From Mycobacterium sp. Z3061 (lineage in GTDB: Bacteria > Actinomycetota > Actinomycetes > Mycobacteriales > Mycobacteriaceae), in assembly GCF_031583025.1 (NCBI RefSeq), contig NZ_CP134062.1:5429234-5493233 (forward strand): a DNA stretch of 64,000 nt. The letters are read 5' to 3'. A program made the position numbers and the translations under genes. Below, in pieces: positions 57,118 to 64,000 of the stretch (position 1 is its first letter; every line of letters starts with the position of its first letter). Below the pieces are notes generated by a model. It saw only the letters and a list, made by a program, of their open reading frames with translations, was not told the DNA's origin and did no database searches.

Positions 57118-58560
57118 TCAGATGGGTTCGATCTCGCCTCTCTCAAAGGCATAGAGGTCCCTGTCGCCTTGAAATTGCAAAAAGACGTGTACCTCGTCTT
57201 GGTATGCCGGATCGATCTGTCCGATCTGTCCGTAGTGGTCGTCACCAGACGCTGTGACTCTCGCCCAGTTACCTGGGGGGACGGGGGTGCCGGTTCGTGT
57301 TCGCGACGCCCGCCTCACGTCATTCGCCCGAGAGGCTTGCCGCGCGGGCGGGTCTCTCACAGGTTCGATCTCACTTCTTTCGAATGCATATAGATCGCTT
57401 TCGCCTTCGAATTGCAAAAAGACGTGTACCTCGTCTTGGTATGCCGGGTCGATCTGTCCGATCTGTCCGTAGTGGTCGTCACCAGACGCTGTGACTCTCG
57501 CCCAGCTACCCGGGGAAAAGTACGTGTCTGGGGTTCCTCCTATGTGAGCTTGACGCTTCTTGCTGCCAGTCGCCTTCGGGGTCGAGGGCTCCTTGGCGGC
57601 GACGGACGAGGCCGCAGTAGGAATACCTCTGTAGGACAACCGATCGCCGGATGGCGGGCGATCCTTCAGCGGCTCGGCGTGGGCCTTGCTCTGCACCGCC
57701 GGATTTAGCCTCGTTGGATTAATGGGAACGGTGATCGCGTCACGTGCTGCATAGGCGAATTCGACAGTCGTGGCATACCGTTGATTTGGGTCCTTGGCCA
57801 TCCCGATCGCGATCACGTCATCGACCCGCCGGGGTACTCCCAATTGCTTCATTGAGGCGCGAGGTGGCGGCGTGTTTAGGTGCGAGGCGACCAACTGTGC
57901 CATTGTGCTACCGGCGAAAGGTGGCCGCCCAGTTAGAGATTCGAAGAGGACGCAAGCCAGCGAGTAGATGTCAGCGCGAGCGTCTTCGTCGGCATCAGGA
58001 TCCAGACGCTCTGGTGCGATGTAGGCGAAGGTACCAATTATGTTGCCGGATCGGGTCATCCGCGTTTCATCGGCGGCGCGGGCGATCCCAAAATCGATCA
58101 AGTAGGCGAAATCGTCGTCATCAAGCAGGATGTTGGATGGCTTAATATCCCGATGCATCAGTCCGACTCGATGCGCCGCGTGCAAAGCCTTGGCGATTTG
58201 CTCAACCACATGCACCGCGCGCCCGGGTTCTAGCGGGCCAGCGGCCAGGACAGTACTCAAGTCGCGGCCCTCTATCAGGCGCATGTCGACATAGAGGCGA
58301 CCGTCTATCTCGCCGTAGTGATGGATCGGGATCACATGTGGGCTGTTCAACCGGGCGGCTGCGTGCGCTTCCCGGCGAAACCGCCGTTGGAACTCGGCGT
58401 CTCGCGACAGATGTTCGGGTAACACCTTGATTGCGACGATCCTGTCGGTGTCGGTATCGTGGGCGCGCCACACCTCGCCCATACCGCCTCGACCCAGCAA
58501 CTCGACGAGTCGGTACTGCCCGAATGGTGTTCCCTCCACCTGGTCCTCCCGGCTTCCCAT
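57118..58560 (-). CDS. Soluble Ser/Thr protein kinase with duplicated C-terminal module
   Basis: This 480-aa protein has a PknB-type kinase domain: Gly loop GRGGMG (23-28), the ATP-anchoring Lys (45), the catalytic HRDIKPSN (Asp 138), DFG (156-158) and the activation loop TRSGNIIGTFAYIAPERL. No membrane helix follows, unlike most mycobacterial Pkns. The C-terminus carries two near-identical 50-residue modules (WARVTASGDDHYGQIGQI...VHVFLQF...LYAFER.EIEP) of SH3/KOW-like beta pattern. The ATG at 58560 is used; a TTG at 58593 is possible. Within a defence island it may act as a phage-triggered kinase; this is inference. Confidence 0.87.
   Translation of the reverse strand: MGSREDQVEGTPFGQYRLVELLGRGGMGEVWRAHDTDTDRIVAIKVLPEHLSRDAEFQRRFRREAHAAARLNSPHVIPIHHYGEIDGRLYVDMRLIEGRDLSTVLAAGPLEPGRAVHVVEQIAKALHAAHRVGLMHRDIKPSNILLDDDDFAYLIDFGIARAADETRMTRSGNIIGTFAYIAPERLDPDADEDARADIYSLACVLFESLTGRPPFAGSTMAQLVASHLNTPPPRASMKQLGVPRRVDDVIAIGMAKDPNQRYATTVEFAYAARDAITVPINPTRLNPAVQSKAHAEPLKDRPPSGDRLSYRGIPTAASSVAAKEPSTPKATGSKKRQAHIGGTPDTYFSPGSWARVTASGDDHYGQIGQIDPAYQDEVHVFLQFEGESDLYAFERSEIEPVRDPPARQASRANDVRRASRTRTGTPVPPGNWARVTASGDDHYGQIGQIDPAYQDEVHVFLQFQGDRDLYAFERGEIEPI
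57121..57507 (-). repeat. Direct 150-bp duplication inside the kinase gene
   Basis: Copies at 57121-57270 and 57358-57507 are offset by exactly 237 bp (79 codons). Most of the middle 90 bases are identical at DNA level, including synonymous positions, so the duplication is recent or kept uniform by recombination. Confidence 0.9.
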
Positions 58561-58721
58561 CGTCAGGATGTCTGCACGATAGTTGCAGTTCAAACACCAG
58601 GGAATGCAACTGAAGCCCCGTCAGTTTGCCGAACGGCGTTGCGCCTCGAAGCTCGCGACTCGTCGCTTGGGGAGCAGCTGTAATTTTGCGTCTTACAATC
58701 CAACTTTGGGAGGCTACTAAC

Positions 58722-60266: not shown

Positions 60267-60965
60267 GTGGAGCAGCGCTATCTCACTCACGAGCAACTAC
60301 ACCGACTGGCGATCGCCTCGGGCCGGTTTCGCACCTTTATCCTTACTCTGGGCTACTGCGGACTTCGGTTCGGTGAAGCCGCCGCCCTCCGCGTGGACGA
60401 TGTGAATATTAAGGCAAGGCGCATCCGGGTCAGCCGATCGGTGACCTACGTTCCAGGGAAGGGGTTGGTCGAGGGGCCAACCAAGAATCACAGTGCGCGC
60501 ACCGTGCCAGTGCCCAGGTTCCTTGCGCCAATGTTGGCCACAGAGATCCAGCGCGACCACGACGGCGCTGCACTGGTCTTCCCTTCGCGTCACGGTGGCT
60601 TTCTCACCCTGGGAGAAGCTCGTTGAGTGTTTGACCCGGCCGTGCAGACCGTCCGTGCTGCCGCCAAAGCGCAACGCCAGCAGGAGGTCGAGGAGACGGG
60701 CCAGCCGACCACTTTGGAGTTTCCGACGATCACTCCACACGACTTGCGCCACACCTGCGCATCCCTGGCGATTAGCGCCGGGGCCAACGTGAAGGTGCTG
60801 CAGACCCTGTTAGGCCATAAGACGGCGACTTTGACACTGGACCGCTACGGGCACCTATTTCCCGATGACCTGGGCAGCATTGCGGACGCTTTCGATGCTG
60901 CCGCCAAAACCACTGCGGACGCCCTGCGGACGATACCAGCTGCACGAGTAGCCGCAGTTCAGTGA
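60267..60965 (+). pseudogene. Tyrosine recombinase/integrase, truncated and interrupted
   Basis: The catalytic domain is recognisable: GLRFGEAAALR with the first Arg, TKNHSARTVPVP with the Lys, then HDLRHT with the His-x-x-Arg and LLGHKTATLTLDRYGHLF with the second His and the Tyr nucleophile. A TGA at 60624-60626 cuts it where relatives have a Trp codon (ARW/VFDPAV), and the N-terminal arm-binding domain is missing; a TAG directly precedes the frame. It lies 26 bp from a tRNA-like att fragment, the normal place for an element's integrase. Confidence 0.85.
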
Positions 60966-60990: not shown

Positions 60991-61039
60991 TGTGCCCCCA
61001 GTCGGACTCGAACCGACACTTGGCGGATTTTAAGTCCGC
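60991..61039 (-). other. tRNA 3'-half, probable attachment-site remnant
   Basis: On the minus strand an anticodon arm (stem 61035-61039 with 61023-61027, loop CTTAAAA, anticodon TAA) is followed by a five-base variable region, a T-arm (61013-61017 with 61001-61005, loop TTCGAGT) and a TGGGGGCACA acceptor end (60991-61000). No D-arm or 5' acceptor strand matches on the other side, so the gene is half a tRNA. Such halves mark att sites of integrated elements. A TAA anticodon with a short variable loop is odd for tRNA-Leu. Confidence 0.65.
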
Positions 61040-61256
61040 TATTCTGGGGATTTGCTGGCGTTGGCAGACTACGGCACCGTGCGCAATTTCCAAGTTCTAG
61101 CTGCGGTTACGCCCTTTCTTCCGTTGGCGGCCGTAGTCACGTTTCGGTGCCATGTGCATACAGTTTGTTTACGCTGTACCTCGGTGGCCCTCAGTCTTAG
61201 GCTAGAATTGCAGCGGATTCATCAGCCACACCCACAGCTCGTTGCGACTCGCGGCC

Positions 61257-61883
61257 ATGAGTCAACCCGTTGCCGACAGGTCCACGTCATACGATGCGGA
61301 GATGCCCGATGCGGAAGAGGTGCAAGAGCTTGGGCGCAGAGGCGTTGCAGCGATCAAGCAGTGGCTGGAGGCCACCACCTTCATTGAGTTGAACTGGAAT
61401 GTCTACGAGGATCCGGCCATGTGCGTGATGGTCTGCGCTGACGGCAGTCAGAAGAAGTTCGATCTGGCGGGCTCCTTCATAGGAAGTCGGCGGGATCCCG
61501 TGGTAGTCGAGTGCAAATGGTACAACTCGTCAAATTCTCAGCATAAGTACTTCAAGGAATTTCTTGCAATTGCTTATAGTTCGACTATACGCGATACAAA
61601 AGACCGAGGCGCGGACGCGAAGCGTGAGTATATCTGGGTAACTAAACACCCTTTTCAAATATCCGAGTGGGCTACCCTTACTACGGAAGCCAAGATTCGC
61701 CAGTCCGTCGAAGCTAACAGTGCGCTGCTTAATAACGAACCCATTGACGACGCCACTATCAGTAAGCTTGCTCAACGGGTTTGGGTTCTGGTGATGCATG
61801 AAAAGCAAGAGGCGATATCGCTGCCGAACCATGAGTTGATGGCGGTGTTGACGGTTCTAAAGCGTAAGGAGTCAACTTTATGA
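61257..61883 (+). CDS. PD-(D/E)XK nuclease-like protein
   Basis: This 208-aa protein has a restriction-like core: a helix (EVQELGRRGVAAIKQWLEA), a strand with Asp (KKFDLAGSF) and VVVECKWY with E-x-K. The rest is alpha/beta, with a conserved-looking YIWVTKHPF strand. The start at 61257 (ATG) is preferred to a TTG at 61242. It overlaps the next gene by four bases (ATGA). Base composition drops here to clearly lower GC than the flanks. It is likely to be the nuclease of a small defence system. Confidence 0.72.
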   Translation: MSQPVADRSTSYDAEMPDAEEVQELGRRGVAAIKQWLEATTFIELNWNVYEDPAMCVMVCADGSQKKFDLAGSFIGSRRDPVVVECKWYNSSNSQHKYFKEFLAIAYSSTIRDTKDRGADAKREYIWVTKHPFQISEWATLTTEAKIRQSVEANSALLNNEPIDDATISKLAQRVWVLVMHEKQEAISLPNHELMAVLTVLKRKESTL

Positions 61884-63322
61884 GCGACTTCACGAGCGAG
61901 CTCGCATTCGCTCGGACTGCAACTGATCCCGAGATATATATAGAACGCATCAAACTCGCCGTTCGTAACGAGTTTGGCAGAATAGACGACGCAGCACAAT
62001 TAGAAGACACACTCTACTTTAATCATTCCGCTGTGCCTGATTTTGTTATCCGATGGCCGGACCGATCTGAACGTCGCCTGTATCTGAGAAATTCATACGA
62101 GTCGATTGTGGCTGGGAACGATGCAGTTCGCTTTAACGACTCGCAGCCTGTCCTGCTAGCCCTTCATTCGTCAGAGGAGAAACCCGCACCGACTGCGGAA
62201 ATTAGTCAGCAATCACAAGCAGCGCCTCAAACTCTGATTGCCGGCCCAGATGCGTTCGACATGATGACTGACACGGTCACTCAAGGTGAGACATCCGAGT
62301 CACCCGTCGCGACCCTCGTACGAACCAACTTGCCGCGAGGTGGACGTGGCCTACTCACACCTGCATTAGTCGAGGAACTACTAAACATCGGCACACCTGC
62401 CAGCCCAAAAGATAAGGCACCGATCTCTGAGCGGTTGTCTGAAAACTTTCTTCCTGAAGCTGCCGCACGTATTGCACGAACAGCCAATTTGGTTGAGATA
62501 GCGTTTGGTGAGGATTTTTCGGCATTGCCTGAACCGTCCACAGCGAGCCTGAGCCAGGACGAAGTTCAAACACTTTTACCGTGGCTTTTAACACGCCCCG
62601 ACACCACTCGGGATCCACGTTTCTGGCAATACATAGGATCGATGCTCGATTTAACCGACGTCATCGCATATCGCGATGCGTTGGCAAACGTCGATCTGAC
62701 TCCACTGATTTCTTCTAATTTGCGCAAATGGTCCGGAAAGCGCGCATTCATTGGCCTCGAAAATATCCCACCTGAAAATGCCACGGCAGCCGAAACGGCT
62801 ATTCGGGCTGATGGAGTATGGGGCCTTCTAGGTTCTACGCTCGGGATAAATAGCGGCGGTCGACGCCTTCATCTCGCGCCGAGTGGTTACGAAATCCGAG
62901 GGCGCGGTGGTATGTCCGGCGTTCTCTGGGATGATCTCGCGGGCACACTCGGAGAATACGATGTAGTCTCCGCGAATCTTCGAGGCGTCAGTCGCTCGAT
63001 CATCATCCATGCAGAACAAAGCGCAGATGTTTCTGCCGATGTAGCCACCTTCGCCAGCTCAGTCGACGACACGTACTACGTGCGCAATGTAACCCTCGCC
63101 CTGCCGTCCGCCAACGAGGACGCCGCATTAACCGAAGTCGCCGTGAACTTCGACACCTCAATCGTGGCGTCGGAGCGTCCTGTATCCCTTATGACTTTGA
63201 CGAGAATAGCTTTGGGCGTACTTGCCTACCAGGACCAGCAACACACGTGGGCAATTCCAGGGCTTCCGGAGATCGACGACACGAAAACTATTGAATCGTC
63301 GGATGCGAATCCCCCCGAATAA
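61880..63322 (+). CDS. Unrecognised 480-aa protein coupled to the nuclease
   Basis: No family was recognised. The first 90 residues (IYIERIKLAVRNEFG, VPDFVIRWPDRSERRLYLRNSY) look like a small alpha/beta domain. A linker rich in Ser, Thr and Gln (about 95-150) is followed by a larger alpha-beta domain with RFWQYIGSMLDL, RAFIGLENIPPEN and SRSIIIHAEQSAD. No Walker, helicase or membrane motif is seen. The AT-rich coding and the four-base overlap with the nuclease gene show co-acquisition. It might be a sensor or specificity subunit. Confidence 0.7.
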   Translation: MSDFTSELAFARTATDPEIYIERIKLAVRNEFGRIDDAAQLEDTLYFNHSAVPDFVIRWPDRSERRLYLRNSYESIVAGNDAVRFNDSQPVLLALHSSEEKPAPTAEISQQSQAAPQTLIAGPDAFDMMTDTVTQGETSESPVATLVRTNLPRGGRGLLTPALVEELLNIGTPASPKDKAPISERLSENFLPEAAARIARTANLVEIAFGEDFSALPEPSTASLSQDEVQTLLPWLLTRPDTTRDPRFWQYIGSMLDLTDVIAYRDALANVDLTPLISSNLRKWSGKRAFIGLENIPPENATAAETAIRADGVWGLLGSTLGINSGGRRLHLAPSGYEIRGRGGMSGVLWDDLAGTLGEYDVVSANLRGVSRSIIIHAEQSADVSADVATFASSVDDTYYVRNVTLALPSANEDAALTEVAVNFDTSIVASERPVSLMTLTRIALGVLAYQDQQHTWAIPGLPEIDDTKTIESSDANPPE

Positions 63323-63411
63323 ATAGCCGAACGCTGTTATCGCGATTGACCGTCGGGTCGACCGATAGCGTGCACCGTTCGATGTCATAGCCCTCGATTA
63401 GCATCTTCTCC

Positions 63412-64000
63412 GTGGCAACATTCAACGCCTTATTGGCGGGTCTCGACCCAGACCCGGCCGTCCGAGGCAAGCAATTCGAGCGTGTTTGTGAGTGGTTTCT
63501 CGCCAACGACCCGAACTACAGAAGCACCCTGCGTCGGGTTTGGCTTTGGCGCGATTGGGTGGGACGTTGGGGCGGAGACTCAGGTATCGACCTTGTCGCC
63601 GAAGCCCATGATGGACGGCTGTGGGCTGTCCAGGCAAAGGCCTATGACCCGGCAAACGCCGTGACCAAAGCAGACGTGGACAAATTCCTGGCGGAATCAT
63701 CCCGGTCGGTGTTCTCCTATCGACTGTTGATCGCAACCACTGACAAGCTCCACCACGTTGCGCGGCGGACAATTAACGAGCAGGAAAAGCAAGTCGCCTT
63801 CGTCGGGTTGAGCGATCTGCTCACGTCCGAGGTGAATTGGCCCGCTGATCCGCTGCGCATGCGACCATCCCCGCCACCAAAACGCGCGCGACCGAGGCAG
63901 CATCAGCGCGAGGCCATCAACGATGTTGTGAAGGGGTTCAGTACATCGGATCGGGGTCAGCTCATCATGGCCTGCGGGACAGGGAAGACTCTCACATCGG
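63412..64000 (+). CDS. Large nuclease-helicase, Type ISP-like (3' end outside window)
   Basis: The frame opens at GTG 63412 just after a stop (TAG 63388-63390) and runs off the end. The first 160 residues have a PD-(D/E)XK core: GIDLVAEAHDGRLWAVQAKAY (Asp, Gln-x-Lys) and the helix FERVCEWFLANDPNYRS. At the very end LIMACGTGKT is a Walker A box, preceded by RPRQHQREAINDVV, a Q-motif-like stretch of DEAD/DEAH helicases. This order is that of Type ISP restriction enzymes or related single-chain nuclease-helicases. The 89-bp gap after the 480-aa gene would allow co-transcription. Confidence 0.8.
   Translation, partial: MATFNALLAGLDPDPAVRGKQFERVCEWFLANDPNYRSTLRRVWLWRDWVGRWGGDSGIDLVAEAHDGRLWAVQAKAYDPANAVTKADVDKFLAESSRSVFSYRLLIATTDKLHHVARRTINEQEKQVAFVGLSDLLTSEVNWPADPLRMRPSPPPKRARPRQHQREAINDVVKGFSTSDRGQLIMACGTGKTLTS

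Follow-up and report, generated by a model that had tools for sequence, protein, structure and literature searches.

The 64,000-nucleotide (nt) stretch of Mycobacterium sp. Z3061 analysed here (the window; positions 5429234-5493233 of a genome that is a single contig) carries near its right-hand end two genes on the plus strand, gene 1 (61257..61883), encoding 208 amino acids (aa), and gene 2 (61880..63322), encoding 480 aa, that are one inherited unit. Our reading, to which we give a probability of roughly 0.55, is that this pair constitutes an undescribed two-subunit nuclease directed against phages or mobile DNA. A third gene, encoding a nuclease-helicase, follows on the same strand, and all three sit in a 9.2-kilobase (kb) island bounded by two exact 49-base-pair (bp) repeats; the unit, however, is the pair and not the trio. 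The open reading frames (ORFs), the ATGA overlap (gene 1 stop at 61883, gene 2 start at 61880), the 480-aa length and the 89-bp gap (63323-63411) between gene 2 and gene 3 that a first-pass annotation had described were all reproduced by an ORF check.

Recurrence of the gene pair

Gene 1 lies directly upstream of gene 2, on the same strand, in all 56 distinct further loci that were found via gene 2, with an overlap of 1-7 bp in 53 loci and a gap of 1-2 bp in three, the overlap lengths being approximate as gene 2 starts were picked near the gene 1 stop. The 56 loci derive from 58 rows in which L017/L020 and L018/L049 are duplicate records, and take in two with a broken gene 2 (L016 and L056) that were left out of alignment A3. 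Because of this recurrence chance is ruled out as the source of the adjacency, and the outcome that had been named as fatal to the first-pass annotation, that the two genes are never found together elsewhere, did not materialise. Relatives of gene 2 occur in 4/301 genomes of the family and 2/396 of the phylum (own genome counted in both), in five plasmid records and, in a one-pattern scan of a collection of 84,980 species, at 50 loci from 19 genera, all of which we take to be actinobacteria.

Within one genus, taken to be Streptomyces, a search with gene 1 matched 14 of 295 genomes, and gene 2 lies downstream at all 13 places where gene 1 is full length (11 genomes), 12 of them recognised by ORF search and one by tblastn and then in a longer stretch; at both places in genome G745 the gene 2 ORF is cut to 288 aa. 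One further place, in the plasmid of L014, is left out of these gene 1 counts. In another family one of 50 genomes matches gene 1, and both genes are present there. Partial pieces of gene 1 with no detected partner were also found (L138/L143, L140 and L144), as were a plasmid record with 146 aa of gene 1 and no gene 2, two more records that give the same partial match, and a partial gene 1 beside a long gene 2 (L139); such pieces are probably decayed copies.

Phage records contained no match to gene 2 of the window or to a Nocardia gene 1, and viral contigs scanned with a single sequence gave no match either; scans of the viral contigs with alignments found two IMG/VR contigs, with both genes on each. 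Genomes G745 and G782 have the pair no more than ~25 kb from one contig end and an equally scoring copy near the other end, as judged by rounded genome size, which suggests terminal inverted repeats.

The tight coupling of the genes, and their carriage on an island, on plasmids, beside Tn7-like genes and on the two viral contigs, would also suit a toxin-antitoxin-like addiction module that keeps mobile elements, in which gene 1 would be a toxic nuclease restrained by gene 2. We regard this as unlikely, as typical antitoxins are small, whereas gene 2 is large, seemingly multi-domain and possessed of an invariant FNH..PD..R signature, and as gene 1 also occurs in pieces that lack gene 2, although these may be dead.

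The predicted nuclease and its partner

The model of gene 1 (predicted local distance difference test, pLDDT, 88.9) has the PD-(D/E)XK core fold, and E20, D69, E85, K87 and Q184 are invariant across 51 sequences, with the D...ExK motif (D69, E85, K87) thus present in 51/51. In its predicted fold the protein is similar to XisH and to nucleases of defence systems; the latter are prominent among the leading structural matches, which are mostly entries that we take to be PD-(D/E)XK nucleases. Neither protein of the window matches a model in Pfam, NCBIfam, PADLOC or PHROGs (for PADLOC-DB 2.0.0 there were 0 families for either one, even with E allowed up to 1), and sequence search of solved structures found none for gene 1. 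It is because of the invariant residues and the predicted fold, despite the silence of the profile libraries, that we consider gene 1 probably to be a PD-(D/E)XK nuclease, as first annotated; the same silence bears out, for the libraries used, the view that the genes fit no named defence system.

The N-terminal part of gene 2 likewise resembles a PD-(D/E)XK domain, in this case one without ExK (FNHSxxPD...R...YLR). The PD is kept, but the ExK acid is missing in 50/50 sequences, and where ExK would be expected, on the strand after PD, there is [YF]x[RK], or more fully a [YF][LIV][RK] triplet in which the first residue is Y in 34 and F in 16 and the last is R in 49 and K in one (n = 50). Sequence search of solved structures returned three matches for gene 2, with E 0.26 or worse, a viral fold library returned weak matches only (best E 0.12), and a RecR match to an Arthrobacter gene 2 (E 0.071) was taken as noise. 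No fold match was found for the C-terminal part, where the aligner barely covers the protein past about residue 192 and a known fold may be missed. Structure prediction, which had been recommended for the 480-aa protein, was therefore informative on its N-terminal part, nuclease-like at weak E-values, and not on the remainder; nor does any library match make the window gene 2 a known subunit, which had been listed among the findings that would speak against a new system. Profile comparison found no similarity between gene 1 and gene 2, so that a recent duplication is not supported.

Genomic neighbourhood and proposed function

Neighbouring genes were taken from our own gene caller and not from annotation, and the counts leave out L016, L017, L018, L062 and L064; of 206 genes, 205 were scanned, the exception being an 1841-aa gene of L042. 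The control consists of 117 genes from 20 hand-placed 8-kb stretches, mostly of the window's family. The neighbours vary and include type ISP enzymes (L013, L065), type I pieces (L012), HsdR (L125), methylases (L030, L044), OLD/GajA-like, PDC-M23B/HamB-like, TmtA, SIR2, TIR, PDC-S15 and HerA proteins, resolvases and transposases, and eight of ten hand-picked neighbours match PADLOC. Among the 25 commonest Pfam families listed for each neighbour half type ISP is the only clear restriction-type family, once in each half; methylases lie beside a few copies of the pair, and no constant methylase was seen beside it among the families listed. Hence the search for the pair in other actinobacteria that the first-pass annotation had called for succeeded at every locus as regards pairing, and for part of the loci only as regards a position beside defence genes.

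In six Streptomyces loci (L015, L045, L052, L053, L054 and L063) the pair is adjoined, divergently, by Tn7-like genes, namely a TnsA-like gene, a Mu-type transposase, an ATPase and a ~465-aa DNA-binding protein (named by annotation in L015 and by similarity in the other five), with HA-domain proteins on the pair's other side. Another reading is that the pair is a DNA-processing factor of the mobile elements themselves, comparable to XisH or TnsA, that serves their excision or transposition or the upkeep of telomeres. This would seem quite unlikely, since the annotated Tn7-like set already has a TnsA-like gene of its own, the surroundings of the pair differ from locus to locus, and the island in the window has its own integrase and resolvase.

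From the pairing, conservation, predicted folds and mobile setting, all of them observed by computation, we infer coupling, a complex, sensing, cutting and defence along the following lines. Gene 1 would be the catalytic subunit, a metal-dependent PD-(D/E)XK cutter; gene 2 would be translated by coupling via the ATGA overlap, and its product would bind that of gene 1 through the N-terminal pseudo-nuclease domain, holding and directing it, whilst the C-terminal part would sense or recognise a target. The pair would act as a triggered or modification-dependent nuclease on phage or plasmid DNA or on the infected cell's own DNA, and this is likelier than classical restriction-modification because the pair lacks an ATPase and a constant methylase was not seen beside it. 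More tentatively, and with less confidence than in the scheme as a whole, the pair could represent a new class of two-subunit antiviral nuclease in which the sensor is a former PD-(D/E)XK nuclease whose pocket, rebuilt around the invariant FNH..PD..R..R signature, binds a nucleotide or nucleic acid made by the phage or cuts in an unorthodox way, the C-terminal part reading the trigger.

Several points weigh against a nuclease of this kind. The Foldseek E-values against the PDB are weak, starting from 1e-3 for gene 1 and 0.14 for gene 2, and co-variation of the two genes is also expected from joint transfer without a complex. PADLOC models matched number 146 and 176 for the 205 neighbour genes against 74 for the 117 control genes, a modest enrichment in figures that count models and not genes, with a control unmatched by species; generic kinase, helicase and mads models match control genes too. 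Two of the ten hand-picked neighbours have no PADLOC match, and a large share of the neighbours encode transposases, resolvases or metabolic functions. The putative defence role is based on what surrounds the pair, its mobility, its place in an island and analogies of fold, and for this reason we give it the probability stated at the outset. No title or abstract opening describing the pair was found in a literature search of partial coverage, so prior publication is possible. If the pair does defend its hosts, then actinobacteria of 19 genera have a nuclease system of strictly paired genes that escapes all four family libraries searched. Its partner subunit would combine a C-terminal part of unrecognised fold with a degenerate nuclease-like domain, and what the invariant pocket of that domain does is a well-defined question for biochemistry.

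The helicase gene

Gene 3 begins at 63412 with a GTG, leaves the window at 64000 and runs on, on the plus strand, to 66765. Read to its end in the whole genome, as had been advised, it encodes 1117 aa with Mrr_cat_2 nuclease, ResIII/DEAD helicase and Helicase_C domains and seven HA stretches, and with no methylase match in Pfam. The first-pass annotation had placed it in one cassette with the pair, and the shared strand and short gap would be explained if the three genes formed a restriction cassette that includes the Mrr-helicase-HA protein. Furthermore, one Arthrobacter plasmid has a type ISP enzyme 91 bp downstream of the pair, no Pfam family is commoner than HA in one neighbour half (5/105), and helicase or HA-repeat relatives (E up to 1e-3) are found in 9/56 pair loci. 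None of these relatives is adjacent to the pair, however, and seven of the nine loci have them solely on the opposite strand; in L038 there is a short HA piece on the same strand, 2.3 kb upstream of the pair, and in L012 a short same-strand HA piece 3.9 kb downstream and an opposite-strand helicase 7.1 kb upstream. Six of the nine loci belong to the one Streptomyces group with Tn7-like genes. A stricter helicase count (E up to 1e-6) gives 7/56, all on the opposite strand, to which the looser threshold adds L012 and L038; the control stretches give 0/20 at E up to 1e-6, but this carries little weight, since they total 160 kb whereas the pair loci total 1.1 Mb.

Full-length homologues of the helicase, with 54-57% identity, are present in six other genomes of the family, which have no gene 2 match and no pair gene in the flanks examined. 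The guanine-plus-cytosine (GC) content is 51.7% in gene 1, 53.5% in gene 2, 61.6% in the helicase gene, 60.3% in the left 10 kb and 64.6% in the whole window; the AT-richness first noted in genes 1 and 2 is therefore genuine, whereas the helicase is near the surrounding composition. The trio as a unit was rejected on account of the homologues without the pair, of the 56 loci in which no helicase relative adjoins it and of a composition unlike that of the pair. We hold the three-gene cassette to be highly improbable, and gene 3 is more probably cargo that the island carries independently of the conserved pair.

The island and its tRNA site

The left attachment-site (att) copy, at 60992..61040 on the minus strand, is the 3' half of tRNA-Leu(TAA) and matches C1:5499463-5499511 exactly over 49 bp; this second copy, 9,238 bp to the right, is held in the intact tRNA-Leu(TAA). 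Besides genes 1 to 3, the island between them contains genes for a serine resolvase and for a tyrosine integrase, the latter adjoining the intact tRNA outside the window, and two small ORFs, of which one gives weak HNH matches in PHROGs. The element boundary that had been suspected at the tRNA 3' half is borne out. Beyond the island there are a PPE gene and a WXG100 gene, as would be expected of a mycobacterium or a close relative. Beside the left att copy, outside the repeat, lies the C-terminal piece of a second integrase (60267-60965), interrupted by an in-frame stop, which may be left over from an earlier element at this tRNA site.

The tRNA-Leu(TAA) site serves other elements too. Five genomes chosen by hand from site-search matches (L166 to L170), all of the genus and one belonging to the same species, have a second site copy ~10-16 kb from the first; the pair is absent from all five, and the stretches between the copies carry different genes, including a NACHT match that falls short of its cut-off and an AAA_21 match that narrowly exceeds its own. 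Four of them have in common a 356-395-aa protein beside resolvases, without Pfam match in the L166 copy, which to us recalls a phage capsid protein, and phage-satellite-like elements may use the site. In L170 (4419-10772) a 2118-aa protein with no Pfam match occupies most of the stretch between the two att copies. Finally, at 57118-58593 of the window (minus strand) there is a protein kinase gene, the C-terminal part of which has two near-identical modules of ~50 residues (GxWARVTASGDDHYGQIGQIDPAYQDEVHVFLQF).

Comparison with known systems

Type ISP enzymes and other Mrr-helicase proteins share Mrr_cat_2 and ResIII with gene 3, which differs by its HA repeats and by the lack of a Pfam methylase match, and which in any case stands outside the pair. 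A comparison for the pair itself is R.BspD6I, a heterodimer of Nt.BspD6I and a small subunit, from which it differs in the absence of the ExK acid from gene 2 and in having no constant methylase seen beside it. The fold of gene 1 is like that of XisH, the fdxN element excision controlling factor (2inb, 2okf); its partner XisI is much shorter than the 480 aa of gene 2, which has no Pfam match. Lamassu, HerA-DUF, Avs3 and CBASS systems are built with SMC, HerA, STAND or SAVED partners, and whilst gene 1 has neither a fused sensor nor any such partner, its fold is related to that of their effectors, in Lamassu LmuA, the HerA-DUF assembly, Avs3 and CBASS Cap4.
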